This document shows positions 1,321 through 45,436 of a DNA stretch of 51,543 nt, piece by piece; within the stretch, counting starts at the first letter, position 1; every line of letters starts with the position of its first letter. The translations under genes and the position numbers were made by a program. A model generated the notes under the pieces. The model saw only the letters and a program-made list of their open reading frames with translations, was not told the origin of the DNA and searched no databases. This stretch comes from a virus: the IMG/VR virus record IMGVR_UViG_3300024054_000001, positions 1 through 51,543 of that record, one strand, 5' to 3'.

Positions 1321-2784
1321 ATGCCGCTGTTCATCGACTCGCAGAGCCAGGCTCGAGGCCCGGGCGTCTACGCCATCGAGATCACGCCCCCGCGCGTGAT
1401 CGACGAGGTCTCGAACGGGTACATCGGCCTGGTCGGACAATTCGACTGGGGCCCGAAGCAGTCCGTCTACGTGCCTTCCGATGGCGCGGACTTCCTCGAC
1501 GTGTTCGCGCCGGCTGGCTCGGGCCGGGCGTCGACCGGCTACTACGCGACGATGCGCCGACGCGGACTGACCCTGAAGGTCGTGCGCGTACTGGGCTCGG
1601 GCTCGGCTGCAGCGAGCGACTCGGCCGCCGGGACGGGCGGCAACCTGGTTTCGACGGCCAAGTACCACGGCACGATGGGCAACTCGATCGCCCGGACGAT
1701 CGGAGCGGCCTCGGGCGGCGATGCGACCAAGCGCGACATCACGTTCACGCTGACCAACTCGGTGACGGGCACGACGACCGAGGTCTACCGCGACATCGCG
1801 ATGAACCAGACGATCGACGTCTCGCGGTCGAAGCTCCTCGCGTCGCTCGTGTTCTCCGGCGGCACGATGACGGTCTGGCCGTCGAACGGCACCGTGAATC
1901 TCGCCGGCGGATCGAACGGCGGCGCGCTGGCCTCTTCGGACTACACCGGCACGGCGGGCGCGGCCGACAAGGGCTGCGCGCTCTTCGAAACGCACGACGA
2001 CGTGCGCGTCGTCATGCACGACGACTGCGGCAACACGAACCGGGCCTCGATCAACGCCGCGTTCGCGACCCACGCGGCCACGCTGCGCGATCGACTCGCG
2101 GTGGTCTCGGGCAACTCCGACGCGGCCGACTGGTCGACCGTGAAGGGCTACCGCACCGGCTCGCTGATCAGCGAGTACGTGATCTTCAACGGCGCATGGG
2201 GGAAGTTCTACGACGACGCCGGCGTCCTGCAGACCGCACCGTGCGACGCGAACGTTGCCGCGGCGCTGGTCAACCTCGAGCCGCAGCAGTCCCACGCCTG
2301 GTGGGATCCGAAGGCCACGAAGTACTGCGATTCGATTCAGGACATCGTCGCGACGTTCTCGACGAAGTCGGACACGATCCGCGGCGAGGCCACCGAGCAG
2401 GGCATCAACCTCCCGATCCGGCTGCCGGACGGGCCCTTCGCGTTCCTGCACGACCGCACCGCCGGCACCGGCTTCGCGATCACGCGACGGATCCGGAATC
2501 ACCTGGCGCTCTCCCTCGTGCCTGGTCTGCGGAGCTACACGAACGGACCGAACACGAGCGAGGGCCTGCGCGAGATGAAGGCGATCGTCGACACGTTCCT
2601 GAGCGGCCAGATCCGCAAAGGGCGCCTGACGGCAGCGTCGACCGACGTGTCGATGAACACGGCGGCGTCGATGGCGCTCGGCCAAGCCTCGATCGGCATC
2701 GATGGCACGTCGCCCGCCGCGCGCGAGAAGATCTTCCTGCTGGTCAACGTCGGCCCGACCGTCACGGTCCGCGAGGCCGCCTGA
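1321..2784 (+). CDS. Contractile tail sheath protein
   Basis: This 487-residue protein matches the phage tail sheath family (gpFI / Mu gpL type). The N-terminus PGVYAIEITPPRVIDEVSNGYIGLVGQ is the typical start, with a GPKQSVYV segment that leads the first domain. The C-terminal half contains LPDGPFAFLHDRTAGTGFA-ITRR and NHLALSLVPGLR, followed by a long final helix-strand unit ending KIFLLVNVGPTVTV, which joins neighbouring subunits in sheaths. The start is supported by TAGGAG about 8 nt upstream. A sheath gene makes this a myovirus-type phage with a contractile tail. The tube gene follows directly. Confidence 0.93.
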   Translation: MPLFIDSQSQARGPGVYAIEITPPRVIDEVSNGYIGLVGQFDWGPKQSVYVPSDGADFLDVFAPAGSGRASTGYYATMRRRGLTLKVVRVLGSGSAAASDSAAGTGGNLVSTAKYHGTMGNSIARTIGAASGGDATKRDITFTLTNSVTGTTTEVYRDIAMNQTIDVSRSKLLASLVFSGGTMTVWPSNGTVNLAGGSNGGALASSDYTGTAGAADKGCALFETHDDVRVVMHDDCGNTNRASINAAFATHAATLRDRLAVVSGNSDAADWSTVKGYRTGSLISEYVIFNGAWGKFYDDAGVLQTAPCDANVAAALVNLEPQQSHAWWDPKATKYCDSIQDIVATFSTKSDTIRGEATEQGINLPIRLPDGPFAFLHDRTAGTGFAITRRIRNHLALSLVPGLRSYTNGPNTSEGLREMKAIVDTFLSGQIRKGRLTAASTDVSMNTAASMALGQASIGIDGTSPAAREKIFLLVNVGPTVTVREAA

Positions 2785-3946: not shown

Positions 3947-5809
3947 ATGTCCGATACTGTCTACAACGTCCGAACGGTCTACGAGGTCGATGACCGTGGC
4001 GCGGGCGCACGCGTAGGGGGCCTCGGTCGTGCATTCTCGGGGCTCTGGAACACGATCCGAAGCGTCACCGGATCGCTCTTCTCGCTGCGGACGGTTCTCG
4101 GCGGTGCATTCGGCGCCGCGGGCGTCTTCAGTGCGGCCCGCGCGATCACGCGCCTCGGCGGTGAGGCGGAGAGCACGCGGATCGCGATCGCAGGCATGCT
4201 GCAGGCTGGCGGCGCATCCTCGAGCATCGATCGAGCGATGCAGACATCCTCGGACCTCATCGAGCAGATGCGCGTTCAGGCCCGCGCTCTGCCGGGGGAG
4301 TTCCAGGACGTGCTGAATGTCTTCCGTGGCGGCCTCGGCGGCGGACTGGCCGCCGGACAAACCGCGGATCACATCCGCCAAGTGGCTGGGCAGCTGATGG
4401 CTGTCACGCAGGTCCTCGGTGTCGATTCCGAGCAGGCCGGCCGAGACTTTGCGCTCATGCTCGAGGGCCGCGCAGGCGCTCAGGTCGCCACGTTCTCTCG
4501 CTTGCGAGCGCAGATCGGCATGACAGCCGAGGCGTTCAACGCGCTCGCGCCGGCGGAGCGATTCCAGCGGATCGAGCAGGCGATGCGCGGATTCGGTCCC
4601 GCGATCGATCGATACCAGTCGTCGTGGGCGGCGGTCTCGTCGACGACCAGGGACCACCTGACGACGCTCCTACGCACGTCGACGCAGCCGCTCTTCGAGC
4701 GCCTGCGCGACACGCTCGCGCGCGTCAACGAGTGGTTCGAGCGGAACCAGACCCGGGTGCTGGCGTTTGCTTCCTCGATCGGCACGCATCTCGCGTCCGC
4801 GTTCGACCGCATCGTCGGCCTTGCGCAACGCCTCGGGGAGTTTCTCTCCCGTCTGTCGTTCGACCGGCTCCGGTCGTCGCTCACTCAGCTCGGCCCCGGT
4901 CTGCTCGCTCTTCGTGGCGTCGCGGCCCTCGGCCTCGGCGCCGCTGGCGGGGCGATCGCGCTCCCCGTGATCGCCGCGCTCACGAGCGGCGGCCCCGCGG
5001 TGGGCGAGGCGCTGCGTGCGATCGGCGAGGCCAGCCGGCCCCTGGTCACCATGCTCGGCCAGCTCTTCACGGCGACGATGCCACTGGTGACGATGCTGGG
5101 CGTTACGTTGATCGGAGCGATCACGCCGGTCATCGAAATCCTGGGCGGGCTCGGAAGTGCACTGCAGGCCTTCGGTGCGTGGGTTCGGGCGTTGCCAGGG
5201 ATGGAAGGGTTCCTCGCCAATATCCGCGCGGGAATCCAGGAGTTCAACACCGGCGCCGGGCGTTCGGACGTCGCGAACATGGCCGCGGGCGTCGAACGCC
5301 AACGCGAGCATGTCGCGAACGTCGGACGCGTGCAGGACATGCTTCGAGGCGTCCGGGAATCGATGCCGTTCGTTGGGCGCGCGCTGAGCGAAGACAACCG
5401 CACGCGGCTAGCGAATGTTCTCGAGCTGTCGTCCGGCCAGATTGCTGGCAACGAAGCCCTTCGCGGTCGCGTGTCCGCGCTCGCTGCGGTGATGTCGATG
5501 GCCCGCGGTCGTGCCGGCGTCCGTGGGGGCGTCGAGTCGATGGCGGGGCTGCTCAACACTGCCGTCGGGCAGTTGCCTTCGAGGGTCTTCAGCGGAGCGG
5601 ACATCAACATCAGCGGCGACCGAACGCAACCCACGCCGAACGTCGTCGCAGGCAGGGGAAACGTGCACGTGAGTGTCCGCGTCGAGCAGACGATCGAGAA
5701 CGCGAACGACCCGGATCGGGTGCTCATCGCGACGCGCCAGGGCGTGCTCGATGCGCTGATGCATCCGCTCGAGTCGGCGGGGCTCCTCGTCGGCTCCGAT
5801 CTGCGATGA
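3947..5809 (+). CDS. Tape measure protein
   Basis: This 620-residue protein sets tail length and is extruded during DNA entry. Residues 20-75 are glycine-rich with a hydrophobic stretch (VLGGAFGAAGVFSAARAI). Further hydrophobic segments lie in the middle (GVAALGLGAAGGAIALPVIAA and the PLVTMLG repeats). Long helices with few Cys are typical of the family. At about 1.5 angstrom per residue, the length predicts a short tail of roughly 90 nm (inference). It follows the chaperone frameshift gene and overlaps the hub gene as ATGA. I see no peptidase or lysozyme motif inside it. Confidence 0.88.
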   Translation: MSDTVYNVRTVYEVDDRGAGARVGGLGRAFSGLWNTIRSVTGSLFSLRTVLGGAFGAAGVFSAARAITRLGGEAESTRIAIAGMLQAGGASSSIDRAMQTSSDLIEQMRVQARALPGEFQDVLNVFRGGLGGGLAAGQTADHIRQVAGQLMAVTQVLGVDSEQAGRDFALMLEGRAGAQVATFSRLRAQIGMTAEAFNALAPAERFQRIEQAMRGFGPAIDRYQSSWAAVSSTTRDHLTTLLRTSTQPLFERLRDTLARVNEWFERNQTRVLAFASSIGTHLASAFDRIVGLAQRLGEFLSRLSFDRLRSSLTQLGPGLLALRGVAALGLGAAGGAIALPVIAALTSGGPAVGEALRAIGEASRPLVTMLGQLFTATMPLVTMLGVTLIGAITPVIEILGGLGSALQAFGAWVRALPGMEGFLANIRAGIQEFNTGAGRSDVANMAAGVERQREHVANVGRVQDMLRGVRESMPFVGRALSEDNRTRLANVLELSSGQIAGNEALRGRVSALAAVMSMARGRAGVRGGVESMAGLLNTAVGQLPSRVFSGADINISGDRTQPTPNVVAGRGNVHVSVRVEQTIENANDPDRVLIATRQGVLDALMHPLESAGLLVGSDLR

Positions 5810-7098
5810 CCGACGTATTCTACCCGCGAGCACTGGTGCAACTGCACGCGCGAGTGCTCGGCCAGGATGTGACCACGTCGATCGAGCCGCACCGGGTGTC
5901 GCTCACACGCCGGCCACACAACCAGGCCGACGAGGTCGAGGTCGAGATTCACGGGACGGCGCTGCCGTTCGAACCACGTCACATCGAGGACCTCTGGCTC
6001 GGCGTGTTCCTCGGAGATCCCCGGTCGATGTCTGGGCGCGTCGACACGGATCGCTTCCTGCGGTTCGTGGGCTACGCGGACGACATGGAACCGGGCAATC
6101 CGGCCGCCGAGGCGCCGCGCGTGAAGATCACGGCGCGTGATCGCAGCGCCCAACTGCGCGACTTCAAGCCGCTACCCGTCGCAGCGCAGCCCCGTTACGG
6201 CGACATGCTCGGGCAGGCGATCGAGCGCATCCTTGCAGCGGTGCCGTCGGCCGTCGGCATGGAGCTGCGCTCAAGCGAACACGCATCGATTCCGCTCGCG
6301 CCGCTGGTATCGGCCCGGGCACGTGCCGGACGTATCCCGCTGCCGAACGACTGCACGGCCTGGCAGGCCATCGAGCACGTCTGCGGCCTATGCGCTCGCG
6401 AGGTCACCATCGACCTCGAGGACGTCGTCATCCAGGTGCCCACGGCAGCCCGGTCGAGCCCCTCGGAGGCGGCGGCGAACTTCGTCTTCGGTGGCGTCCG
6501 CGGAAACCTGCTCGAGGCGAAGCGGAAGAAGAAGTTCCAGCGCAACCGCAACGGCGTGCGGGTCGTCTCGTTCGATCCGGCGACGCGACGACGCGTCGAG
6601 GCCGTCTACCCGCCCGACGGTCAGCTCCCGAGACGACATCGCGCGCGAGGACGTCGCGGCGGCGGCGGAGCACAGCCGCCGGAGCGCGACATCTTCGCCC
6701 TCGGCGACGGCATCACGTCGCACGATCAGCTCGAGGAGTACGCCCGACGCATCTACCTCGAGCGGTCGAGGCAGGAGGTCGAGGTCGAGATCGAGTGTCC
6801 GTTCCCGACGGACCAGCACATCGGTCTGCGCAACGGCGACCGCGTCTCGATCGAGATCGAGCCCGGCCTCGCCGACGACATTCGCGGCAGCGGCACGGGC
6901 GCTGTCGCGCTGCTCGAGCGGCGGCTCGGCGTCGACCGCGAAGTCGCGCAGATCCTGGTTCGCTCGGCGCGCGAGCCCACCACGAACCTCTTCTACGCGA
7001 AGACGATCACGACCGAGTTCTCGGCCACCGAGAAGACCGTCGTGAAGATCGACGCGATCAATCTGATTCTCGCCATCGACGACCGTCAAGCCGCATGA
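5806..7098 (+). CDS. Baseplate hub protein (gpD / Mu gp44-like)
   Basis: This 430-residue protein lies between tape measure and spike, the gpD/gp44 slot (T4 gp27-like). It opens with YPRALVQLHARVLGQDVT, a strand-rich start, followed by VSLTRRPHNQADEVEVEI, the common domain-1 pattern. It later has TAWQAIEHVCGLCAREVTI, typical of the middle domain of these hubs. A basic, Gly-rich loop (about residues 265-295) may be flexible. The ATG at 5806 overlaps the previous stop, which rules out the much longer upstream reading in this frame. Confidence 0.82.
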   Translation: MTDVFYPRALVQLHARVLGQDVTTSIEPHRVSLTRRPHNQADEVEVEIHGTALPFEPRHIEDLWLGVFLGDPRSMSGRVDTDRFLRFVGYADDMEPGNPAAEAPRVKITARDRSAQLRDFKPLPVAAQPRYGDMLGQAIERILAAVPSAVGMELRSSEHASIPLAPLVSARARAGRIPLPNDCTAWQAIEHVCGLCAREVTIDLEDVVIQVPTAARSSPSEAAANFVFGGVRGNLLEAKRKKKFQRNRNGVRVVSFDPATRRRVEAVYPPDGQLPRRHRARGRRGGGGAQPPERDIFALGDGITSHDQLEEYARRIYLERSRQEVEVEIECPFPTDQHIGLRNGDRVSIEIEPGLADDIRGSGTGAVALLERRLGVDREVAQILVRSAREPTTNLFYAKTITTEFSATEKTVVKIDAINLILAIDDRQAA

Positions 7099-9445: not shown

Positions 9446-10627
9446 GTGGCGAACGCTGATCTGCCAACGACGGACGAACTGGTTGCGGTGGGGCGCACAG
9501 CGCTCCGGACCGCGCTCGATCCGGCCGGCACCGGTGCCGTCAACCTCCGGCCCGGGTCGCGCAACGACACGGCGCTCTCGGTCCTGGCAGCCATGGGCTC
9601 GCGGCTGTCCAAGTACGCGTCGGAACGGTCTGCTGCTGCCCGGGTCTCGTCCGCGGAGGATGAGGACCTCGATGCGCGCGCGGCCGATCTCTACGGCGAG
9701 GAACGCAAGGCCGCAGTGGCAGCGACGGGTCTGCTGCGATTGAAGCGCAGCGGGTCGTCAGCGACCACGATCCCGAAGGGCTCCCGGTTCGGAGTCCCAG
9801 CGACGGCGTCATCTGCAGCAGTGACGTTCGGAGCGTCGGCCGACGTCGCGTCGAGCAGCACGACCGCGGACGTTGCGGTCACGTGTCTCGAGACGGGCAC
9901 GCGCGGCAACCTCGCGAAGGCCTCGGCCTGCTCGTCGATCCTCGATCCCCTGCCCGACGCCGGGTGGTCGGTTGATGTCGTCACGATGGACGGCGCACCC
10001 ACGTCGTACGTGTTCGGCGGCGGTGCGGCCGAGGAGACTACCGACGAGTTGCGAGCCCGTCTGTTGTCGACTTCGCCGGAGACCAACCGGCGCAGGGGCA
10101 CGCGCGACGCGATCCTCGCCGGCACTCTCCGTGTTCCGGGCGTGGCCTTTGCGACGATCGTCGAGTCGCAGGATGGCATGCTGGCGGTCTTCGCCGGCGA
10201 CGCGAACTACGCGCTGCCGACGGCGCTGAAGACGGCGATTGAGACCGAGCTGCTCGACTGGCGCTGCTTCGGCGTCCCGGTGCGGGTGCTGCCGTTCACG
10301 CTCACGACGGTCACGATCGTCGCGACGATCTACATGGCCCGGCCGCTCGTGAACTACGACGCGGCGAGCATCAGGGCCGACGCGGTCGCCGCGATCAAGC
10401 GGTACTTCGACGACCGACTGTATGCCGACGAGTACTACCAGGACCGGATCGAGGCAGCGATGTTCTCCGTGAATGACGAAGTGCAGACGATCGCGAGCAC
10501 GATCACTCCTTCGACGAATGCGACGCGGCCGTCCGATGCGACGTACGCGGGCTACACGCAGTTGACTCGATACGTCGTCAGCGACGCCTCGATCCAGCTG
10601 ACCATGTCCGGACCACTGACCACCTGA
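9446..10627 (+). CDS. Baseplate J-like wedge protein
   Basis: This 393-residue protein fits the gpJ / Mu gp47 baseplate family. Seen features are NLRPGSRNDTALSVLAAMGSRL near the N-terminus, a TIPKGSRFGV segment, FGGGAAEETTDELRARLLS in the middle (the family's E-T-D-E-x-R/Y-R-x-R-hh region), and a C-terminal domain with DDRLYADEYYQDRIEAAMFSV. The start codon is GTG at 9446, 3 nt after the previous stop; no ATG lies nearby in frame. The protein forms the wedge dimer that initiates sheath contraction in this family. Confidence 0.88.
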   Translation: MANADLPTTDELVAVGRTALRTALDPAGTGAVNLRPGSRNDTALSVLAAMGSRLSKYASERSAAARVSSAEDEDLDARAADLYGEERKAAVAATGLLRLKRSGSSATTIPKGSRFGVPATASSAAVTFGASADVASSSTTADVAVTCLETGTRGNLAKASACSSILDPLPDAGWSVDVVTMDGAPTSYVFGGGAAEETTDELRARLLSTSPETNRRRGTRDAILAGTLRVPGVAFATIVESQDGMLAVFAGDANYALPTALKTAIETELLDWRCFGVPVRVLPFTLTTVTIVATIYMARPLVNYDAASIRADAVAAIKRYFDDRLYADEYYQDRIEAAMFSVNDEVQTIASTITPSTNATRPSDATYAGYTQLTRYVVSDASIQLTMSGPLTT

Positions 10628-10628
10628 G

Positions 10629-11150
10629 ATGGCTGCGCAGTATCCCAACACCACGCTCGAGGACGACACGCTCGACCTCGACTACGGCGGCCAGCCCGTG
10701 TCCGTGTTCGGCCAGCCTGCTTTCAAGTGGCTGAACTCGATCGTCCGGTTCCTCGGCCGCGCATACCTGGCCTACCTGCGAGTGCCGTACGGCACGCAGC
10801 TCGTCGTTTCGCAGAGCAGCGCCGCCGCCGGGGACGTCGCGATCTTCGACGCCGAGCGATCGCCGACCACGGTCGCGTACTACGTCTCGAAGCTCGACGG
10901 CGGATTCGTCAAACCGATGTGCTACGGCGTCTTCCTCGAGCCGTGCTCCTCGCTCGCGAAGGCACGCGTGGTCACGGCCGGCATCATCTCCCAGACGATC
11001 CACGGGCTGGCCCCGCAGGCGACGTCGAAGGACGTCGCGCTCGATTCCGGCACCGGGCGGCTGAAGGTCGCGGGCGTCGGCGACGTCGTGCTCGGCAAGC
11101 TCGACGTCAAGGGCAACGTGCTCTTCACGGGCTTCGGCGCCGAGTTCTGA
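10629..11150 (+). CDS. Baseplate-associated protein of unknown function
   Basis: This 173-residue protein sits between the J-like and I-like genes and overlaps the latter (TGATG), so it is almost certainly a virion or baseplate component. It has an aromatic, mixed N-terminal half (YGGQPVSVFGQPAFKWLNSIV) and a beta-rich C-terminal half with alternating Val/Gly (GRLKVAGVGDVVLGKLDV). I recognise no family. It could be an adaptor between wedge and tail fibre. Confidence 0.6.
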   Translation: MAAQYPNTTLEDDTLDLDYGGQPVSVFGQPAFKWLNSIVRFLGRAYLAYLRVPYGTQLVVSQSSAAAGDVAIFDAERSPTTVAYYVSKLDGGFVKPMCYGVFLEPCSSLAKARVVTAGIISQTIHGLAPQATSKDVALDSGTGRLKVAGVGDVVLGKLDVKGNVLFTGFGAEF

Positions 11151-11956
11151 TGCTTCTGCCGACCGACAACTCGGTCGCGCTCGAGCAGGACAACGACGAG
11201 CTGGTCCTCGATGCGAGCGACCGGCCGGCGCCGACGCTCGACGCGATGCTCGAGCTGCTCCCGGGCTGGGCACGCGAACTGTCGAGTCCCGTGCGCGACG
11301 GCCTGCTCGCCGCCTGGCGCGCGATGGGGAACCACCTGTGGGCTCGCATCGGCCAACTGCTCGCCGCGGGTGGGTCGCCGCGATGCGCGGAGGGTGTGTG
11401 GCTCGAGGCGTGGGGCGTCGAGTTCCGTCGTGCGAAGGTGCCAGGCGAGTCCGACGGGCAGTACCGCGCCCGGTTGCTCAATCCGCCCGACGTCGTCTCG
11501 CCCACCGCGATTCGCGAGGCGGTCGAGGCAATCGCCTCCGAGGAAGGCGTCGACGAGGTGCTCTTCCTCGAGCCCGCGATCGACGCGATGTTCGCCGCCC
11601 CGAACGACAACGGGCCGTGGGAGTGTTGGCTGCAGCCTGCAACGGGCCGTTTGTGGCCGACGGACTCGACCCGATCATCGAATCGATACGGCCTCTACGC
11701 CGTGCCCGTGACGGCCAGGGCGCTGTTCTGGATCGTCCTGCCCGGCGATCCCGGTGCCGACGCGAGCGCCTTCGCGGCGCCGAACGACTCGAGCACCATC
11801 CTCGACTTCGTCGGATCGACGTCGACGGTGTTCGTCTACGCCTTCCGCGCTGCCGACCTGCTCCTCGAGCGCATCGCCTCGGAGATCGAGGCCCGTCGTG
11901 GCGGCGGCGTCGTCTGGTTCGGACTTTACGACCCCTTCCTGCTGAACGCTGCGTGA
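11150..11956 (+). CDS. gpI-like baseplate / tail fibre connector protein
   Basis: This 268-residue protein follows the J-like gene region, the slot of gpI / Mu gp48. The N-terminal half carries LDAMLELLPGWARELSSPVRDGLLAAWRAMG, close in style to gpI-type proteins (PPG-W followed by a helix), then EGVWLEAWGVEFRRAKVPGESDGQYRARLL, which matches the P-R-x-x-G-E-S-D-x-x-Y-R-x-R pattern. The C-terminal part (residues 165-268) is an additional beta-rich domain. The ATG at 11150 overlaps the upstream stop. Confidence 0.75.
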   Translation: MLLPTDNSVALEQDNDELVLDASDRPAPTLDAMLELLPGWARELSSPVRDGLLAAWRAMGNHLWARIGQLLAAGGSPRCAEGVWLEAWGVEFRRAKVPGESDGQYRARLLNPPDVVSPTAIREAVEAIASEEGVDEVLFLEPAIDAMFAAPNDNGPWECWLQPATGRLWPTDSTRSSNRYGLYAVPVTARALFWIVLPGDPGADASAFAAPNDSSTILDFVGSTSTVFVYAFRAADLLLERIASEIEARRGGGVVWFGLYDPFLLNAA

Positions 11957-11963
11957 GAATCCC

Positions 11964-13106
11964 ATGTCAGGACCCCTGAAGAACTGGACCGACGGCGAAG
12001 GCATCGTGACGCCGGAGCTGCAGCGCGCTGCCGACGCGGCCGCCGCGGCCGACGACCTGATCCTGCGCGCTCTCGTGCCACCTGGCGCTGCCGGCGCTTC
12101 GACGTACGGCAAGCGCGTGCTTCCCCTCGTCGAGGAGACCGCCAGCGTCAACCCGCGGCAGCTCGTGTACCCGAGCGGTACTGCGGGCAAGGCGAAGGTC
12201 CGCCCGTTCCAGCTCATCGTCGGCGCGAAAGACATCGTCGCGCCCGACGTCGCGGACGTGATTCTCGCCGGCGCCCGACTCACCGAGTTCGAGAGCACCG
12301 TCTTCGGCAACACTTCGGCGAACAACCGCTGCGATGTGCTCTACGCGCTGATCCAGCGCTCGGGCACGACCGCGAGTCGCAAGGTCAAGGACCCGACGAC
12401 CGGTATCGTGTCGACGCAGTCGATCACGATCTACAAGGACGTCGCGATCTCCTTCGGGATCCAAGTGGGTTCCGAGGGCGGCGGCGCGCCGGTGCCTTCC
12501 CTCCCGTCGGACACGTCGACGGCTTGGTACGTGGCCCTCGCCGAGGTCCGACTCGCGCATCCATTCGTGGGCGGCGCGCTCACGCATGGCTATGCACTGG
12601 GCGGCGCCGGCACTGGCAGGATCGCGCAGGTTTGGCCCGGTTCGTGGATCGCCGACCAACGACTGCGACGGCACCAAGGGTTCACGTCGGTGGTCAACAG
12701 CTCGGGAGTCGTGGCTTCGGCGACGCAGACCACGGAGCGAAGCGGCGCCGGTGCGCGATGCGTCTTCACAATCCGGCAAGTCACCGGATCGGCGAACTAC
12801 TACAAGCTCGACACGACGCGCGACTGGCGCGGCCGCCTGGTCCGAGCGCGCGTGGTCAAGCTCACACCGGCGGGCACGGCCCCGCATGCGGTGACCGCCG
12901 CGGGCGCGCCGACGAGCGACCTCGACACCGGCTCGCGGATGACCGGCACCGACGGCGCGGACTTCTGGACGAGCGGCGGCTCGCCGACGCCGATCTATCT
13001 TCGCGCGAACTCATCCACGGGCGCACTCGAGATCAAGTTCGACAACGCCGGCGCGCCGGACGAGTGGGTCATCGACATCGAGGCGACGGACCAGTTCCTC
13101 GGGTAG
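11964..13106 (+). CDS. Tail fibre / baseplate appendage protein
   Basis: This 380-residue protein is the first of the appendage genes. The N-terminus (GPLKNWTDGEGIVTPELQRAADAA) is a plausible baseplate-docking helix. The rest is beta-rich with many short Gly/Thr turns. A segment AHPFVGGALTHGYALGGAGTGRIAQVWP and the C-terminal WTSGGSPTPIYLRANSSTGALEIKFDNA suggest a carbohydrate-binding or fibre-tip fold. I recognise no chaperone or enzyme motif. It ends exactly where the oppositely oriented lipoprotein gene begins (13106/13107). Confidence 0.6.
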   Translation: MSGPLKNWTDGEGIVTPELQRAADAAAAADDLILRALVPPGAAGASTYGKRVLPLVEETASVNPRQLVYPSGTAGKAKVRPFQLIVGAKDIVAPDVADVILAGARLTEFESTVFGNTSANNRCDVLYALIQRSGTTASRKVKDPTTGIVSTQSITIYKDVAISFGIQVGSEGGGAPVPSLPSDTSTAWYVALAEVRLAHPFVGGALTHGYALGGAGTGRIAQVWPGSWIADQRLRRHQGFTSVVNSSGVVASATQTTERSGAGARCVFTIRQVTGSANYYKLDTTRDWRGRLVRARVVKLTPAGTAPHAVTAAGAPTSDLDTGSRMTGTDGADFWTSGGSPTPIYLRANSSTGALEIKFDNAGAPDEWVIDIEATDQFLG

Positions 13107-13868
13107 TCACCGACAGGGGACCAACCCCATCGAGTTGAAGCACGAGCACGCGCGTCCCGATGGGCTGCAAACCATGCAGGTCGGAGCAGTGATCGAGGCG
13201 TAGAGGAAGATGCGCCAGGTTCCGACGCGCATGTCGACGCCCGGATAGATGCAGGCGGCGACCGAATCGCCGACCAGCAACCCCAGGCGCATCGCGTCGG
13301 CAAAGCAGTTGTAGTGCTCCGGGCTCGGACTCATCGGGGGCGGAAACGTCGGCTCGCGAGGGTTGTTGTCCGCGAAGCCGTCGCAGTCGTCGTCGACGCC
13401 GTCGCACCGCTCGAGCGGGTAGCCCGGTCGACGGAGTCGGTTCGAATCGTCGCAGTCGTCGGCGTTGTCGACCGTCCCGTCGGGGCACGCTGCGCCGCAC
13501 ACGACCATCACGGGTCGCGTGCGATCGCCGAACGTGTCGCGGTCGCTGTCCTGGTAGCAGGTGCGTTCGCATCGGTCCGACGGAACGTCGCCGGCGTCGG
13601 CACGGTGGCAGAACCCATCGGCGCCGCAGGTCTCGCCCGCGAAGCACGGTGGCGAGCACCGATACGCGCCGTCGGGGTACCGCCAGGCCTCATCGACGAC
13701 GTCGGTAGCGTCGAGTGGCGTCGGCGTGTCGGTCGACGCGTCGACGACGTCGACGTTCGCGTCCGTCGCGATCTCGACGCTCGCGTCGTTCGTCGTCACG
13801 TCCGTCGCTCCCGTCGTGCCGCAGCCACCGGCTGCGCAGGCAGCTACGAGGCCCCAGATGATTCGCAT
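13107..13868 (-). CDS. MopE-type Asp/Cys-repeat lipoprotein (moron)
   Basis: This 253-residue protein is the only minus-strand gene in the structural region. It begins with a short positive, hydrophobic leader ending in A-G-G-C, a plausible lipobox (Cys16). An Asp/Thr-rich linker follows (residues 22-58). Two Cys-rich units come next: CSPPCFAGETCGADGFCH, and a MopE-style calcium/metal-binding repeat, YQDSDRDTFGD then DDCDDSN and ERCDGVDDDCDG. Proteins of this kind are abundant in Myxococcota outer-membrane and surface lipoproteins. It is not needed for virion assembly and is probably expressed from its own promoter, perhaps in lysogens. A cargo role in surface modification is inference. Confidence 0.8.
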   Translation of the reverse strand: MRIIWGLVAACAAGGCGTTGATDVTTNDASVEIATDANVDVVDASTDTPTPLDATDVVDEAWRYPDGAYRCSPPCFAGETCGADGFCHRADAGDVPSDRCERTCYQDSDRDTFGDRTRPVMVVCGAACPDGTVDNADDCDDSNRLRRPGYPLERCDGVDDDCDGFADNNPREPTFPPPMSPSPEHYNCFADAMRLGLLVGDSVAACIYPGVDMRVGTWRIFLYASITAPTCMVCSPSGRACSCFNSMGLVPCR

Positions 13869-13951
13869 GCGTCGAGGGTGCGTCGCGCGCCCGCCACGCG
13901 CAACCGCCCCTGAGGGTGGAGTTTCCTTCCGATTCGCACCGTGAGCTGACG

Positions 13952-14716
13952 ATGGCCATTCGCCACAAGAAGAACGCGGGAGGCCTCAGCGTCCTCGACA
14001 TCGATGGGAAGACCATCGATCCGTCGGGCGCCGTGGCGGGCCAGGCGCTGATCTACGACTCGGTCACGGGCAAGTTCGTCCCGGGCTCGAGTCTCTCGCC
14101 GTTCCACTTTCGGCTCGACCCGACGTCGACGGCCGCCTTCGGCACGCCGCGCGCGTCGTCCGGATCGCCGCCGGCGGTCACGACGGGCACGGACACCGCG
14201 GGTCGCAAGTACGTCCGCTTCACGGCGAACACGTCGAACCCCTCCGTGATCCCGATCACGACGCCGGCGCTTTCGCTGACCGGCCGTTTCCGCATCGAGA
14301 TGCGCGCGAACTGGGGCACGGGCCAGGGCGCTTCGCAGCGCGTCGGCATCTGCTGGAACCTCGATCCCGCGTCGGGCTTCACGTGGTTCGGAGTCGGCAA
14401 TGCCTCCGCCGGCGGCGCATCGTTCGACAGCGATCTCGATGGCACGGCCGAGAACTTCACGACGTTCTCCGCCCGGCAGACGGACGCGTCCTACGAGTAC
14501 TCGCCGCTGCACGTCGAGGTGTTCATCGACTCGAGCACCGGGTACTGCACGTACACCTACGGCGGGCAGCCCTTCTACTACGGCGCGTTCCAGCAGCGCC
14601 GGAAGACCGCGCTGCGCACGTCGGGGAAGTTCGGCCTCGGCCTCTGGTCGCAGGGCAACACGGGCACGCTCGACATCGCCGAGCTGCTGATCTGGAAGAA
14701 CGAACGGGACTGGTGA
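13952..14716 (+). CDS. Tail fibre-type protein, beta-rich
   Basis: This 254-residue protein starts at the ATG at 13952, with a GTGAGC element about 5 nt upstream; an earlier GTG at 13916 would add 12 residues. The N-terminus (KNAGGLSVLDIDGKTIDPSGAVAGQALIYDSVTGKFVPG) has the common phage fibre motif in which a D-S-x-T-G-K-F phrase anchors a beta domain. Residues 55-254 look like a LamG/concanavalin-type jelly roll: ITTPALSLTGRFRIEMRANWG and LHVEVFIDSSTGYCTYTYGGQPFYY. It is a likely receptor-binding component. Confidence 0.65.
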   Translation: MAIRHKKNAGGLSVLDIDGKTIDPSGAVAGQALIYDSVTGKFVPGSSLSPFHFRLDPTSTAAFGTPRASSGSPPAVTTGTDTAGRKYVRFTANTSNPSVIPITTPALSLTGRFRIEMRANWGTGQGASQRVGICWNLDPASGFTWFGVGNASAGGASFDSDLDGTAENFTTFSARQTDASYEYSPLHVEVFIDSSTGYCTYTYGGQPFYYGAFQQRRKTALRTSGKFGLGLWSQGNTGTLDIAELLIWKNERDW

Positions 14717-15170: not shown

Positions 15171-16382
15171 ATGCTCGACTCGATCATCGCCACCGGGCTC
15201 GCCGAGGAGTACGGCCTCGAGGCCTCCGACCTCGGCGGCTGCGTGCTGTGGCTCAGCGACGACTCGCGGCTCGCCACGCTCGCGCAGCCGACAGTTGCGA
15301 ACCCGAAGGACCTCTCCCAGGCATCATGGGTCAAGACCGGGATGACGAGCGTCACGCACGGTGCGGCGGACAGCGAAGGCGGCACGAGCGCGGACACGCT
15401 GGTCGAGGACACGTCGACGGGTCTCCACTACCTGCGCGAATCGGTCGGCGCAACGTACGTAGGCGGACTCTCGACCGTCGCCGAGATCGACTTGCTGTAC
15501 GCCGACTGCCCGTGGATCTGGATGCAGTGCTACAACGGCAAGTACGTCTTCTTCAACATCCAGACGCTCACCGTCGGATTCCAGAACAACGCGACCGGTT
15601 CGATTGCTCGGCTTCCGAACGGCTGGATTCGCTGCTCGATGGCATTCACGTCCACAGCCGGCGCTTCCAACTGCGACGTCGGCATGGGCAGCGCCGACAA
15701 CGTGACGAGCTACACGGGCTCCTCGCGATCGGTCCGGGCGTACAACTACCGACTGACACAGAACCGCACTGCACAGCGGCGCGATCGGACAACGAACGCG
15801 AACCACTTCACGCAGGCTGCGGATGCGGCGATGCCCCAGTGGCAGCCGACGAGTGGTCCGCTCGGACGCCCGCAGTTCACGACCGACTCGACGGACGACC
15901 ACCTGACAAACGCCGTCGAAAATACGGTGAGCGCGTACACGCTGTTCGCAGCCGCGAAGGTCTCCGACTTCTCTTCGCAGCGCGCACTGTGGAGCAACCG
16001 GCACTTGGTCGCCCCGGGCGGTGGAACACTCACGTTCTGGGGCATCCAGGCCTCGACGGGGAAACTGTTCCTGTTCCAAAACACAGCCTCGATCGGCTCG
16101 TTACTGACGAGCAATGCGATCACGGCGGGGCAACCATTCATCGCAGAACTGGCTGTCGACGGCACGGGCCGCGCGCTTGCGCTGAACGGTGTCGAGGCAA
16201 CCGACGCCGCGAACAGCACGACGACGAAGATCCCGGCCGGCTACCTCGGTCGCGACTCTGGGGTCTACACGCCCGGCGCACAGCTCGATGTTGCGATGTG
16301 GTCGCGTCGACTGTCATCGGACGATCGCTCGCGCATCAGGCAGGCCCTGGGTGCCAGGTGGGGCGTGGCGGTGACGCCATGA
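15171..16382 (+). CDS. Large tail appendage protein with lectin-like domain
   Basis: This 403-residue protein opens with DLGGCVLWLSDDSRLATL and has two beta domains. The second (residues 235-400) includes YTLFAAAKVSDFSSQRALWSN, then FIAELAVDGTGRALALNGVEAT and AMWSRRLSSDDRSRIRQALGARWG. That is the pattern of LamG/concanavalin-like proteins ending in the helix common in phage and bacterial jelly-roll adhesins. The first (residues 40-190) also looks carbohydrate-binding. It probably recognises a host surface glycan (inference). It overlaps the next gene as ATGA. Confidence 0.65.
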   Translation: MLDSIIATGLAEEYGLEASDLGGCVLWLSDDSRLATLAQPTVANPKDLSQASWVKTGMTSVTHGAADSEGGTSADTLVEDTSTGLHYLRESVGATYVGGLSTVAEIDLLYADCPWIWMQCYNGKYVFFNIQTLTVGFQNNATGSIARLPNGWIRCSMAFTSTAGASNCDVGMGSADNVTSYTGSSRSVRAYNYRLTQNRTAQRRDRTTNANHFTQAADAAMPQWQPTSGPLGRPQFTTDSTDDHLTNAVENTVSAYTLFAAAKVSDFSSQRALWSNRHLVAPGGGTLTFWGIQASTGKLFLFQNTASIGSLLTSNAITAGQPFIAELAVDGTGRALALNGVEATDAANSTTTKIPAGYLGRDSGVYTPGAQLDVAMWSRRLSSDDRSRIRQALGARWGVAVTP

Positions 16383-20502: not shown

Positions 20503-21128
20503 TCTCGCTCGTTCTCGCGATGCAGTTCGCTCGGCAGATGGCCGAGCGGTTCCACGCTCGACTCGTTCGAAAGAGCGACGCGATCGAGATGAAGCTCGTC
20601 GCGGCCGCGCTCGAGGCCGCCCGTCTGTTCGGCGCGCGTCTCCCGTCGACCGACGAGTTCCTCACGCGCTACGCCACGACGATCGGGCCCATGATCTACC
20701 TGCCCGACTCGATGTGGGACGACCCTCGCGCTCTCGTCGAGGTCGTGACGCACGAGTGCCAACACGTCCGGCAGTTCTGGCGTGGCAGCGGCGACGGCGT
20801 CGCAGGACCGACCGACAGGGACCTGCCGGGTGGATTCGGGTTCGGGTGGCTGTACCTCACTCAGGGCGAGGCGCGCGTGCGGTTCGAAGCCGAGGCGTAC
20901 GTCGCGGGCCTCGAGGCGACCGTGATCGGCATCGGTGAGCCGCTGCCGACGTCGCTCGAGCCGCTCGTCCAACCACTCGAGGGCGGCTACGCGCTCAACG
21001 ACGGCGAGATCGCGCTCGCTCGCGGTCTGCTCGAGGTCGGCGCGACGCAGGTCGCCCAGGGCGTCGCCCTCACCGACGCGGGGCAGACGGCGGTCGAGCT
21101 GCTCCGGCAGCTCGGGGTCGGGCGATGA
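20499..21128 (+). CDS. HExxH zinc-metallopeptidase-like protein
   Basis: This 209-residue protein carries TH-HECQH-V at residues 85-89, a zincin motif, within a helix. A second acidic cluster, RFEAEAYVAGLE (residues 129-139), could supply the third ligand (Glu130 or Glu132), as in gluzincins. No signal peptide is obvious, although the start MISLVLAMQFARQM is mildly hydrophobic. It lies between the lipoprotein hybrid and the amidase, with overlapping starts and stops, so it is probably a lysis- or envelope-related enzyme. Substrate is unknown. Confidence 0.62.
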   Translation: MISLVLAMQFARQMAERFHARLVRKSDAIEMKLVAAALEAARLFGARLPSTDEFLTRYATTIGPMIYLPDSMWDDPRALVEVVTHECQHVRQFWRGSGDGVAGPTDRDLPGGFGFGWLYLTQGEARVRFEAEAYVAGLEATVIGIGEPLPTSLEPLVQPLEGGYALNDGEIALARGLLEVGATQVAQGVALTDAGQTAVELLRQLGVGR

Positions 21129-21178
21129 TGCTCGACGATCCCGACCGCTTCGACGCTGCGCCGTGGTGCGCGTCGTGA
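21125..21178 (+). CDS. 17-codon mini-ORF coupling to the amidase gene
   Basis: The ATG at 21125 overlaps the stop of the preceding gene (ATGATGA). The ORF runs MMLDDPDRFDAAPWCAS and stops at 21176-21178, and its stop overlaps the GTG at 21175 as GTGA. Both junctions match the overlap style of this genome. It may be a translated peptide or simply a coupling device. Alternatively the amidase starts at GTG 21163 or 21166 and this ORF is chance. Confidence 0.35.
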   Translation: MMLDDPDRFDAAPWCAS

Positions 21179-22572: not shown

Positions 22573-23892
22573 TCATTTCACGACCCGGCGCCGCGTTCGC
22601 TGCTTCACATCTGCTACAGCGGCTCTCGTCTCACGTGGTTTCGCCAACGGCGACGCAGGCTTGGGCAGCCAGATCGCGCGACTTTTAATCCGTTGGTCCA
22701 GGGTTCGATCCCCTGAGGTCCCACTGTTTTTCTCGGCGTTTCCAGCTTCCGTCAGTCCAGGGAGTCCATGGAGTGCTGCCGAGTCCACCGAGACTGCTAC
22801 ACCGGCGCTACAGTCGATCGTCGCAGCGAGTCGTGACGCGAGCGCGTCGGTCGACAGTCGCGCGTAGACGAGTTGCAGCATCGTCGTCGTGCGGTGTCCC
22901 ATGACGGGTGCGATCAACTCGAGCGGCGCGCCCGCGTGACGCAGCCAGGTCGCGCACGTGCGTCGCAGGTCGTTCGGTGTGCACCGCGTGATCGCCGCGT
23001 CCGCGCACTCGGCGCGATCGCACTGCCAGTGCTTCGCGATCGCGGCAGGGCATCGACGCGCGACGCATCCCGCACGCCGACACGCGCGCTCGAGGTCGCG
23101 CATCGGGTTGGACCACGAGCGGAAGAGCTGGGGTGCACGGCCGCCGGCATGCTCAAGCGCGAACGCGAGCATCGCGGACTGCTCGGGTGACACGATCGGA
23201 ACCTCGCGGTCCGACAGCTCGGTCTTCGTGCCGCGGAGGTGCACGCGATCGCCGCGGGCGTCGCCGCGCTCGGCTCGACACGTCTCGCCCCACCGTGCCG
23301 ACGTCGCGAGGATGAACGCCACGCGCGCGGCTCGGTCGGGCTCGAGGGCGCCGAGAAGTCTCTGGGCCTCGGCGAGCGTGAGCGCGCGCGTCCGTGGACG
23401 GTAGCCGCTCTCGACACGCGCCGGCATCACCGCGTCGATCGCGCCCGACCAGGTCCCGCGTCGCAGCGCCAAGCGCAGCGCCGACCGCAGTGTCGTCAGC
23501 TCCTTCGCGATCGTGTGCTCGCTCGTGCGCTCGCGACGTCGCTGCGACAGGTAGCCGTCGATCGTCGCTGCGTCGAGTTGCGCGGCCGGAAGGTCCCCGC
23601 CGAGCACGCGGAGCCACTGAGCGGCGCAGCCAGCGTAGAACTTCACCGTGGCGTGACTGCGGACGCCAGCGACGGCCTGCTCGTGTCGTGCATCGACGAG
23701 GGTCTGCAGGAGCGTTGCTAGGGTCGTCGACCGCCGCGCTGCGCGGGCCGGATCTTGGGCGGCTCGTTCGAGCCCACGAGCCGCAGACTCGGCCGCTCGT
23801 CGATCATGGCAGCGGGTCGAGCGGCACTGCCGCGCGCCCGACGCGTCGTAGAACCAACACCACCAGACCGAACCTCGGCGATAGAGCCGCAT
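22573..23892 (-). CDS. int: Tyrosine-recombinase integrase with attP inside its 3' coding end
   Basis: This 439-residue protein starts at the ATG at 23892, preceded by GAGGAGG at a 7-nt spacing. The longer reading upstream lacks a ribosome site. N-terminus RLYRRGSVWWCWFYDASG resembles arm-type DNA-binding starts. Catalytic features are R200 (SARWGE), K223 (GTKTE), R310 (PNDLRRTCATW), H333 (MGH) and Y343 (LVYARL). The box II His of HxxR is Asn307 here. Residues 390-404 are encoded by the tRNA-like attP core, and residues 405-439 lie beyond it. Integration therefore changes the C-terminus, as known for phage Mx8 IntP. It is last in the leftward operon. Confidence 0.92.
   Translation of the reverse strand: MRLYRRGSVWWCWFYDASGARQCRSTRCHDRRAAESAARGLERAAQDPARAARRSTTLATLLQTLVDARHEQAVAGVRSHATVKFYAGCAAQWLRVLGGDLPAAQLDAATIDGYLSQRRRERTSEHTIAKELTTLRSALRLALRRGTWSGAIDAVMPARVESGYRPRTRALTLAEAQRLLGALEPDRAARVAFILATSARWGETCRAERGDARGDRVHLRGTKTELSDREVPIVSPEQSAMLAFALEHAGGRAPQLFRSWSNPMRDLERACRRAGCVARRCPAAIAKHWQCDRAECADAAITRCTPNDLRRTCATWLRHAGAPLELIAPVMGHRTTTMLQLVYARLSTDALASRLAATIDCSAGVAVSVDSAALHGLPGLTEAGNAEKNSGTSGDRTLDQRIKSRAIWLPKPASPLAKPRETRAAVADVKQRTRRRVVK
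22682..22723 (+). other. attP: attP core: 3' half of tRNA-Lys (anticodon TTT)
   Basis: From the anticodon loop onward the sequence forms a tRNA 3' half: loop CTTTTAA (22682-22688), stem TCCGT, 5-nt variable loop TGGTC, T-arm CAGGG-TTCGATC-CCCTG (perfect 5 bp), acceptor AGGTCCC and discriminator A at 22723. No CCA is encoded, and the 5' half is missing. The base upstream (CGCGA) does not pair with the anticodon stem, so similarity begins at the anticodon loop, typical for phage attP cores in tRNA genes. It lies inside the integrase coding sequence. Confidence 0.88.
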
Positions 23893-24086
23893 CGGATCGC
23901 CTCCTCGAGCTGCCGCGAATACTGTTGCCACCGGTCGGCCGGGACACGCAAGAACCCTCTCGCCCCACGCTCGCGCCCGGCCGCGCGTCGCAGGTGCTCG
24001 TACGCGAGCGATCGGCTGCATCCGAGCGCCGCCTGCACGTCGTCGACGCCGAGCCACTTCTGCACATGGGGGAGGGGAGCGGTCAT
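23718..24086 (-). CDS. Putative excisionase (HTH recombination directionality factor)
   Basis: This 122-residue protein is encoded just upstream of int. Residues 8-50 read as a winged-helix/excisionase HTH: KWLGVDDVQAALGCSRSLAYEHLRRA, then GFLRVPADRWQQY. The ATG at 24086 overlaps the upstream stop by 4 nt. The C-terminal half is basic and low in complexity. Its last 175 nt overlap the int coding sequence in another frame, which is long for a phage. Xis function is inferred from position and fold. Confidence 0.65.
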   Translation of the reverse strand: MTAPLPHVQKWLGVDDVQAALGCSRSLAYEHLRRAAGRERGARGFLRVPADRWQQYSRQLEEAIRCGSIAEVRSGGVGSTTRRARGSAARPAAMIDERPSLRLVGSNEPPKIRPAQRGGRRP

Positions 24087-33265: not shown

Positions 33266-33838
33266 CTACAGCGCGTCCCTCGGCGCCACGACGAACCTGC
33301 GCGCGTCCGTCAGCGGCACGACGCGGGCGACGTCCTCGCCGCCGTGGCGCGCCCATCGACGTAGCGTGCCGTCGTCGACACCGATCTCACCGCGACGAAC
33401 GACGCGCCCGGACCACACGACGGCGAGTTGCAGATCGAACACCTCGCCGGCGCGCAACGCGACGATGGTCTCAGTCGTGCGGAACACTCGAGCGAGAGCC
33501 GGCAGCCTGAACGGGTGCTCGTAGAACGCACGACGGAACTCGCGCCGCGGGCAGATGATCGCGGCCGCGACCGCGTTGACGAGCTGCTCATCGTGCGGCC
33601 TTGCGACGCCGGCGACGTCGAGCGCCAAGTGCCCCAGTTCATGCGCGCAGCGCCACGAGACGGCCTCGGGTGCGCCGCGCATCGACACGCGCAGGACGTC
33701 GTCGAGCTGCCCCTGGCAGCCGGCGCCGACGCGTCGCGAGAGTCTCAGGCCGAGGCCGGCGGCCAGTTCTGCAGGGTCGTGCGTGTCGAGCCTGGCGATC
33801 GCGCGCAGCTCATCGGCGAGGGAATCGGCGGTGTCCAT
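33266..33838 (-). CDS. ImmA/IrrE-family HELGH metallopeptidase
   Basis: This 190-residue protein carries the zinc motif HELGH at residues 66-70, followed by LALDVAGVARPHDEQLVNAVAAAIICPRREFRRAF, typical of the ImmA/IrrE family. In ICEBs1-type elements ImmA cleaves the phage-like repressor ImmR and triggers induction. A cleavage-prone repressor without its own peptidase is encoded at 34790-35452, so the pairing is likely. I chose ATG 33838; the longer reading adds 23 residues with no ribosome site. A weak TCCACA-N17-TACTCT-N6-ATG can be drawn upstream. The palindrome at 33922 lies about 85 bp upstream. Confidence 0.82.
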   Translation of the reverse strand: MDTADSLADELRAIARLDTHDPAELAAGLGLRLSRRVGAGCQGQLDDVLRVSMRGAPEAVSWRCAHELGHLALDVAGVARPHDEQLVNAVAAAIICPRREFRRAFYEHPFRLPALARVFRTTETIVALRAGEVFDLQLAVVWSGRVVRRGEIGVDDGTLRRWARHGGEDVARVVPLTDARRFVVAPRDAL

Positions 33839-33921
33839 CGCCCGAGAGTACGGACGGACGTGGTCGGTGTGGAGCGCGGGTCGCGGTCCCGGGGTGCGCG
33901 AAAACACCGGGCGGCGAGGGG

Positions 33922-43740: not shown

Positions 43741-43937
43741 TCTTCGAGCAGGCGCCCTCGCAGCCCGACCGCCGGCCGTTCTGGCAAGAGCTGGTGCTCG
43801 CGGCCGTCGCCGGCGCGGTCGTGCCTCTCGCGCACCACGCAGGCAAGGCGCTCCGCGAAACCCTCGCCGCCCGGCGCCGATCACGCGTGGCGAACACGTC
43901 CGAGTACACGTTGCCCGAGCACTCCTCCGAACAATGA
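43737..43937 (+). CDS. Small membrane-type protein
   Basis: This 66-residue protein has one hydrophobic stretch (ELVLAAVAGAVVPLAHHAG) and a basic region. It overlaps both the terminase stop and the portal start by 4 nt. Function is unknown. It may be a virion-associated or regulatory peptide. Confidence 0.52.
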   Translation: MIFEQAPSQPDRRPFWQELVLAAVAGAVVPLAHHAGKALRETLAARRRSRVANTSEYTLPEHSSEQ

Positions 43938-45436
43938 AGCTCAAGCTGCTGCAGCGGCGCCACGCCGACTTCGACGCCGAGACGCTTCAGACCTACGAGG
44001 ACCTGCTCGTGGGCGGTGCGCAGTTCCGGAAACACGCGACGCGGTATCTGATCCAGAACGACGTCGAGCCGAAGTCCGCGTTCGAGAAGCGCGCGAAGGC
44101 CTCGCACTACCTGAACTACGTCGCCCCGCTCGCGAACTTCTTCGCGTCCTGGCTGTTCAGCTCCCAGCTCACCTATCGGGCCGACGGCAGCGCCGACGAA
44201 GAGGCGTACGCCGAGTTCCAGGAGGACTCGGACGGCACGGGCACGTCGCTCGAGCGGTTCCTGCGCCAACGGTTCGTCGAAGCGCTCACCGTGCAGCGGG
44301 CGTACTGGCGCGTGGTGTTCCCGACGCCGATGACGGCTGCGACGGATCTCGCCGAATACGAAGCCCTCGGACTGAATCGACCCACGCTCGAGAAGATCCC
44401 GGCGTGCTGCGTGGTCAACTGGCGCCGAGCGGCCGACGGCTCGTTCCTCTGGCTGCTCGAGTACCGCTCCGTCGAAGAGCTGCTCGAGATCGAGAATCCC
44501 GACGCCACCGTCACCGAGACGTGGACGCTCTGGCGCGCGGACGGAACGGCTCGGCGCTGGCAGCTTCGCCGGGACAAGCGCGATCACGTGACGCCGGACA
44601 CGGACGTGCCGGAGATCGATCCGCCGCACAATCCTATTGCAGCGCTGCCGATCGTCGAACTGCAGCTTCCTCCCGAACTGTGGCTCGTCGACCAGATCGC
44701 CGACGCGCAGCTCGAGCACTTCCGTCAGCGCAACGCGCTCTCGCACGCGATTCGTCGCACGTGCTTCGCGATGCCGGTGTTCAACCTGAAGGACACCCGC
44801 AAGAAGCCGACGCTCGGCACGGGCTACTACCTGATGATCGGCCTCGAGGAGAAGGTCTCGTGGCCGGCTCCCGATGCCGCACCGTTTGCGGTCGTTGAAG
44901 CGAACGCCGCGGGATTGAAGGACGAGATTCATCGCGTCGCGGCCCAGCTCGGTCGCGGCGTCGACAACAACGCGGCCGCCGTGGGCCGCAGCGCGGAGTC
45001 GAAGCAACAGGACGACTCGGCCACCGAGATCGTGCTGCGCGCGTACGGCGGCCTGATGCGCGACGCTGCCGAGCGGACGTTCGATCTCGTGTCGCTCGGC
45101 CGTGACGACGACATCGCGTGGGATGTGTCCGGCATGGACAAGTTCCACGTGACCGACGCGAAGGCAGTCACGGACCTCGCGGTTGCGAGCGGGACGTTGC
45201 AGATCCCGTCGGCGACGTATCGCCGAGAGCTGGCGAAGCGTGTCGTCCGCGCGCAACTGCCGGACCTCGACGAGAAGACTGCGCGGACGATCGAGAAGGA
45301 GATCGAGGCGGGCATCACGAACGAGGACCTCGTTCCACCGCCGGCCCCTCCACCGCCAGGCCCCCCGAACGACGGAGGCGGCGCGCCGCCGCGCTCCGGC
45401 GCGGGTCCCGCCGACGACATGAATGGCGACACGTAG
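43934..45436 (+). CDS. Portal protein
   Basis: This 500-residue protein has the portal layout: N-terminal LQTYEDLLVGGAQFRKHATRYL, YVAPLANFFASWLFSSQL, a helical wing, then LEHFRQRNALSHAIRRTCFAMPVF and EEKVSWPAPDAAPFAVVEANAAGLKDEIHRVAAQLG, followed by SKQQDDSATEIVLRAYGGLM. That is the SPP1 gp6-like type, the ring through which DNA enters the head. The C-terminus is Pro/Gly-rich. The MuF gene starts inside its last 14 nt. Confidence 0.88.
   Translation: MKLKLLQRRHADFDAETLQTYEDLLVGGAQFRKHATRYLIQNDVEPKSAFEKRAKASHYLNYVAPLANFFASWLFSSQLTYRADGSADEEAYAEFQEDSDGTGTSLERFLRQRFVEALTVQRAYWRVVFPTPMTAATDLAEYEALGLNRPTLEKIPACCVVNWRRAADGSFLWLLEYRSVEELLEIENPDATVTETWTLWRADGTARRWQLRRDKRDHVTPDTDVPEIDPPHNPIAALPIVELQLPPELWLVDQIADAQLEHFRQRNALSHAIRRTCFAMPVFNLKDTRKKPTLGTGYYLMIGLEEKVSWPAPDAAPFAVVEANAAGLKDEIHRVAAQLGRGVDNNAAAVGRSAESKQQDDSATEIVLRAYGGLMRDAAERTFDLVSLGRDDDIAWDVSGMDKFHVTDAKAVTDLAVASGTLQIPSATYRRELAKRVVRAQLPDLDEKTARTIEKEIEAGITNEDLVPPPAPPPPGPPNDGGGAPPRSGAGPADDMNGDT

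Follow-up and report, generated by a model that had tools for sequence, protein, structure and literature searches.

Results and Discussion

A lipoprotein gene of host type lies backward in the tail block

The 51,543-nucleotide stretch of viral DNA analysed here (IMG/VR record IMGVR_UViG_3300024054_000001, henceforth the window) carries, inside the tail block of a temperate phage with a contractile tail, a reverse-strand gene for a MopE-type lipoprotein; from the anatomy of the locus, this gene is most probably a moron with an effect on the outer membrane. Our best single guess at its function, on the same anatomical grounds, is the exclusion of phages that use the receptor of the neighbouring fibres. 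That this backward gene is real is confirmed: the frame starts with ATG, its GC content at the third codon position is 0.85, as compared to 0.84–0.91 in the adjoining genes, and the same gene is present in a second IMG/VR contig (99.99% identical), which rules out an assembly artefact of a single sample. The coordinates of all features are collected in Table 1.

Table 1. Features of the window and reverse-strand lipoprotein genes at comparable places elsewhere (identifiers beginning with G, C or L are our own handles)
Source	Feature	Coordinates	Strand	Remarks
Window	Contractile tail sheath	1321..2784	+	phrog_279, E=3e-10
Window	Baseplate wedge (J-like)	9446..10627	+	phrog_6, E=1e-40; upstream of lipoprotein gene
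Window	Tail-block gene, 380 aa, probable fibre	11964..13106	+	by position
Window	MopE-type lipoprotein gene	13107..13868	-	253-aa ORF with PF11617 match
Window	MopE motif core CDGVDDDCDG	13378..13406	-	single match to pattern
Window	Predicted lipoprotein signal peptide MRIIWGLVAACAAGGC	13821..13868	-	residues 1-16
Window	Other protein regions (residues)			D/T/A/V-rich linker ~17-64; Cys cluster ~70-100; D-x-D-x-D and MopE motif ~101-168; Cys-rich C-terminus 175-253
Window	Divergent gap, 83 bp	13869..13951		lipoprotein start to likely ATG (13952) of next + gene
Window	Next tail-block gene, probable fibre or adhesin	13952..14716	+	by position
Window	Tail protein	15171..16382	+	phrog_5939, E=3.2e-7; downstream of lipoprotein gene
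Window	Amidase	20935-22038		far from lipoprotein gene
Window	Tyrosine integrase	22573..24057	-	PF00589, E=1.4e-9; phrog_1, E=1e-37; same strand as lipoprotein gene
Window	M78 (IrrE/ImmA-like) peptidase	33266..33907	-	PF06114, E=2e-5; lysogeny region
Window	Portal protein	43934..45436	+	phrog_145, E=1.5e-29; query for related Myxococcota prophages
G294:C27	Lipoprotein, 199-200 aa, 22 Cys	L204:296-895	-	just past fibre genes
G372:C198	Lipoprotein, 199-200 aa, 22 Cys	L206:12195-12797	-	just past fibre genes
G375:C228	Lipoprotein, 119 aa	L226:2528-2887	-	4-nt overlap with fibre-region stop
G525:C262	Lipoprotein, 19 Cys	L229:8605-9111	-	stop abuts tail-region stop
L127 (high-GC viral contig)	MopE lipoprotein	5163-5951	-	between baseplate/fibre and tail-fibre genes
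L158 (high-GC viral contig)	MopE lipoprotein	10681-11319	-	adjoins baseplate-hub gene
Mx4 (isolated Myxococcus xanthus phage)	Lipoprotein, 134 aa	L235:40560-40964	-	among + tail-block genes
G375:C27	Collagen-like lipoprotein	second set	-	4 nt after fibre-region stop
G178:C1	Lipoprotein, 19 Cys	second set	-	abuts preceding stop, past lysis region
G342:C50	Lipoprotein, 17 Cys	second set	-	linker resembles that of the window lipoprotein

The product contains 20 cysteine residues and matches the Cu-binding_MopE family of Pfam (PF11617) at residues 138–167 (E=1.8e-7), scoring 31.7 bits against a curated cut-off of 27, while its middle part aligns well to the MopE repeats of host proteins. Together with the lipoprotein signal, this bears out the host-like MopE-type lipoprotein of the original prediction. 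The latter had also spoken of an Asp/Cys-repeat protein, and here the protein is indeed rich in cysteine and has one MopE motif, but this single motif is combined with a cysteine cluster and a Cys-rich C-terminus instead of forming a long repeat array. At the DNA level the window contains the pattern CDGxDxDCDG once, whereas 100 shuffles yielded no match. An AlphaFold2 model has a mean pLDDT of 59 and is confident only at about residues 101–150, the MopE region. The N-terminus, MRIIWGLVAACAAGGC|GTTG, displays the R/K-containing n-region, the h-region and the lipobox Cys of a bacterial lipoprotein, the cleavage site being ambiguous between C16 and C11 (VAAC). For C16, the residues at +2 and +7 are Gly and Thr, in agreement with the sorting rule of Myxococcus, which assigns to the outer membrane those lipoproteins that lack both Lys at +2 and Ala at +7 (PMC5562445); by this rule the protein should be destined for the outer membrane, as far as its sequence tells.

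The stop codon of the gene abuts that of the preceding plus-strand gene (13106/13107). If the lipoprotein is transcribed alone, its promoter must lie within the 83-bp divergent gap at its other end, where no match to a sigma-70 promoter was found; a terminator-like hairpin at 13904–13919 (+) is at chance level. Neither immediate neighbour has a family match in Pfam or PHROG profile searches, so that for these two genes "tail-fibre" is a label given by position. The predicted insertion between two tail-fibre genes thus holds as regards a reverse gene in a plus-strand tail block, while the fibre identity is positional only. In IMG/VR, the fibre and baseplate genes found relatives in the same phage only.

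Searches of phages, plasmids and IMG/VR gave no full-length homologue of the lipoprotein except in the same phage, and elsewhere the matches are confined to the host-type MopE repeat. In Myxococcota, where close homologues were to be sought, the MopE repeat does find matches but no full-length homologue was found, and the C-terminal 83 residues gave, in 282 genomes of the phylum, two marginal matches with internal stops, none of them convincing. No match was obtained in a PDB sequence search or with PADLOC, and in the open-access literature we found no paper on phage MopE proteins or on a lipoprotein slot of this kind. That the phage picked up a host lipoprotein gene by accident and has no use for it would fit a full protein without homologue and a gene with no identifiable promoter; this is nevertheless quite improbable in view of an open frame with a full coding signature, identical in two contigs, and because many phages have a gene of this type at a comparable position (see below).

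Phage lysis often employs a small outer-membrane lipoprotein, and the product could on this account be an outer-membrane spanin or another lysis lipoprotein; this is very improbable for a protein of 253 residues with a MopE motif, encoded on the reverse strand and far from the amidase. Hardly more credible is a toxin delivered by outer-membrane exchange in the manner of SitA, even though SitA proteins are lipoproteins encoded on the prophage-like Mx-alpha units (PMC5562445): no toxin domain was detected (Pfam, NCBIfam, PADLOC), the protein does not qualify as a SitA, and there is no downstream immunity gene, since the stop abuts the convergent tail gene. SitA, spanins and the PADLOC defence families were all rejected for the window lipoprotein.

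The phage and its host

The window represents a complete phage genome, as its two ends share 127 identical bases and the 99.99% identical contig spans their join. The genes for tail sheath, baseplate wedge, portal, Mu-F-like protein and terminase identify a contractile-tailed phage, and the tyrosine integrase, the M78 peptidase and a weak HTH match a temperate one. Also, the leftward early region encodes a ParB-like protein (662 aa) and RecT (window 26492–31110), and no tRNA was found in the window.

The portal protein was used to search 377 genomes (the phylum of a seed titled Myxococcales) as well as 317 and 71 genomes from two classes. Prophages with related portals were found in these sets, 28–37% identical in the best cases; their portal, scaffold, capsid, sheath, tape measure and baseplate genes are arranged in the same order as those of the window. 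A host among the Myxococcota, bacteria of soil type, is well supported by these syntenic prophages, independently of the lipoprotein. MopE motifs were present in all ten host genomes examined, from 3 to at least 150 in each, versus none of 14 control genomes; the motif was also matched in genomes of Uhrbacteria, Parcubacteria and Bacteroidota, and MopE proteins are encoded on more than 100 other viral contigs of IMG/VR (a lower bound), so that the motif alone is a weak host marker. The suggestion that the lipoprotein points to the host group is therefore sustained as to Myxococcota, through the related prophages and the abundance of MopE in the hosts, but not as to the motif taken by itself.

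With regard to the viral MopE proteins, most of those that have an N-terminus begin with a lipoprotein-like signal: a strict pattern is found, among the matches listed, in 49 of 103, and in more by eye. In the loci read, the neighbours of the phage MopE genes are not recognisable virion genes. With lipoprotein-like starts and, in these loci, such neighbours, the homologues do not look like mainly virion genes of other phages, the finding that was to count against the original prediction. Often the adjacent genes are ThyX-like, DnaJ-like or site-2-protease-like. Among the matches listed, at least 88 contigs (within L070–L188) form one linked cluster, with proteins mostly of 400–750 residues and a GC content of 0.3–0.5. 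A reverse MopE lipoprotein with, by eye, a von Willebrand-type-like region is encoded in a 388-kb viral contig (L180:7150-8382).

Reverse-strand lipoproteins recur in tail blocks

A single scan over the window, Mx4, Mx8, Mx9, the prophages and the contigs yielded 13 candidate lipoprotein ORFs, five of which overlap a better-supported gene; all eight that are left lie on the reverse strand, in or just past the tail block. The tail-fibre regions of two relatives (G234 and G031) have no reverse lipoprotein, as is expected for a moron, and other lipoproteins are found in G294, G372, G375 and G525. The window gene is in fact unrelated to its flanking genes and absent or replaced in relatives; non-homologous cargo and presence or absence among relatives uphold the predicted moron-like nature, and the integrase and M78 peptidase uphold the temperate phage implied by the lysogens of that prediction. 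The interpretation is upheld in part, expression in lysogens, receptor masking and social recognition being putative.

In Mx4, the lipoprotein ORF is annotated as hypothetical in OR576728 and is unannotated in OK085710, which places the small plus-strand ORFs p68 and p69 at this site instead. Beside the lipoprotein gene of G372:C198 there is a second, small Cys-rich one (L206:10456-10812; 118 aa, 10 Cys). The tail blocks of L127 and L158 are alike by eye, and their MopE lipoprotein genes stand at different points, after the fibre gene in the former and beside the hub gene in the latter, as if movable within the block.

A second set, not chosen for lipoproteins, comprised regions downstream of Mx4-type baseplate genes, relatives of the Mx4 baseplate protein being present in 17 of the 377 genomes. 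Eighteen such regions were read, one of which was a prophage of the first set read again. Clear reverse lipoproteins were seen in the three second-set prophages of Table 1 and in a paralogous cassette of G294, and none in L249, L258, L261, L262 and L265; the reverse genes of L251 and L255, which have a lipoprotein-like start and a less certain signal or context, were left uncounted, and L260, L266 and L267 were too short to be scored.

The spacing from stop to stop is 0 nt in the window, G525 and G178, and 4 nt in L127 and G375:C27. Homology among the recurrent lipoproteins, which are often rich in cysteine, is limited to the MopE repeats carried by L127 and L158, the paralogues within G294, and the G294/G372 pair. 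About ten independent places make up the recurrence, which is to be read as a count and not as a statistical rate; likewise, the controls Mu, P2 and phiO18P, which have no reverse lipoprotein in the tail block, are three phages and too few for a rate. We consider both the recurrent slot and the type of its cargo well supported. The findings suggest a general slot whose genes alter the surface of the host, a change that probably serves to shut out competing viruses.

As to G294, it has at least four paralogous cassettes (L250, L252, L253, L254), in which baseplate and fibre genes are followed by a reverse trio of a sigma-factor-like protein, a lipoprotein with 26–29 Cys and a secreted protein; these cassettes are possibly domesticated tail elements.

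Comparison with known systems and proposed role

In T5, the lipoprotein Llp reaches the receptor FhuA on the periplasmic side and blocks it (PMC9586334), and Rtp45 acts likewise on LptD (PMC12685063). The llp gene and the receptor-binding gene oad (pb5) are 79 bp apart and on different strands, much as the window gene is opposite to a tail gene about 80 bp away, and the two proteins have in common a predicted outer-membrane location and a proposed interference with a receptor. Unlike the window protein, Llp is a 77-aa precursor without MopE motif, and T5 is a lytic phage with a known receptor whereas the window phage is temperate. A comparison with Llp itself gave no significant match, and the window lipoprotein is placed by its sequence outside the Llp family. 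The tail-fibre genes of P2 are closely followed, on the reverse strand, by fun(Z), which is annotated as nonessential, as acting in lysogenic conversion and as blocking T5; it is, like the window gene, a single reverse gene beside fibre-region genes of a contractile temperate phage, but it has no lipoprotein annotation and we found in it no lipoprotein signal. Judged by gene arrangement, T5 llp and P2 fun(Z) are anatomical precedents for the window gene. A third case is Ltp of Streptococcus thermophilus phage TP-J34, an exclusion lipoprotein expressed by the prophage and discussed as a moron (PMC3952083), which shares with the window protein a prophage-encoded surface lipoprotein (predicted here) made of linker and effector domain, and differs from it by a Gram-positive host, a gene in the lysogeny module and an unrelated domain.

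Closer to the host, the Mx4 ORF is a reverse lipoprotein gene in the tail block of a contractile phage as well; its product has no MopE motif and no sequence similarity to the window protein, and the two phages are not detectably related. The Myxococcota MopE/Cys-rich lipoproteins (PF11617) share the motif with the window protein, whose D/A/T-rich linker resembles those of the G342 and G178 prophage lipoproteins; many host and phage MopE proteins have several motifs, whereas the window protein has one and is encoded in a tail block.

We thus propose, with about even confidence, that the window gene is a moron in a recurrent slot, whose product is an outer-membrane lipoprotein that interferes with a receptor and makes lysogens resistant to superinfection. 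Expression of the gene would be independent, with the prophage as its most likely source; the product, after export and lipid modification, would reach the outer membrane, and there would most likely interfere with the receptor recognised by the neighbouring tail fibres. Lysogens would thereby be protected from superinfection by related phages, and virions, once released, would not be lost on receptor debris, the effect that T5 Llp has in the case of FhuA. The host-type MopE/Cys-rich domain suggests that the protein interacts with a host surface protein of this class or mimics one. Counting against the proposal, the known Gram-negative exclusion lipoproteins are much smaller than 253 residues, and the comparisons with Llp and PADLOC, the search with the C-terminal residues and the promoter scan were negative.

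Expression specific to the lysogen is not required, since T5, which encodes llp, is lytic and viral contigs abound in MopE lipoproteins. A lipoprotein made early in infection, as T5 Llp is, and not in the lysogen, might shield the receptor during the lytic phase: besides the llp precedent, Mx4 is called lytic in its genome papers, and the MopE lipoproteins common in viral contigs are in many cases large and often stand beside thyX-like or other non-structural genes. We regard this as unlikely, because the window phage is temperate and the gene, being antisense to the late operon, is more likely to be expressed at other times than late in lytic growth.

The lipoprotein may also convert the surface of the lysogen without excluding phages, benefiting the phage by helping its host through adhesion, metal or calcium binding, predation or cell-cell recognition. 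The host-like domain, the large number of MopE motifs in the hosts, the diversity of the cargo, which includes a collagen-like lipoprotein, and the ability of myxobacteria to swap outer-membrane lipoproteins between cells (PMC5562445) are all consistent with such a role. It is doubtful, if by no means negligible, as a purely host-serving function leaves the placement among tail genes unexplained, which receptor-linked exclusion explains naturally, and a single MopE motif seems too little for an adhesin.

A broader and more tentative idea is that the slot is a dedicated one shared by tailed phages of Myxococcota, an exchangeable host-mimicking lipoprotein and the adjacent fibre possibly forming a cassette for receptor binding and receptor blocking. 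If so, the large MopE/Cys-rich lipoprotein families of the host would belong to the receptor landscape imitated by these phages. To our knowledge, both the receptors of Myxococcota phages and the role of these very large families are poorly understood, and a recurrent slot in which envelope lipoproteins accompany tail fibres would open the two questions to experiment; the same arrangement exists in Mx4, a laboratory phage of Myxococcus xanthus.
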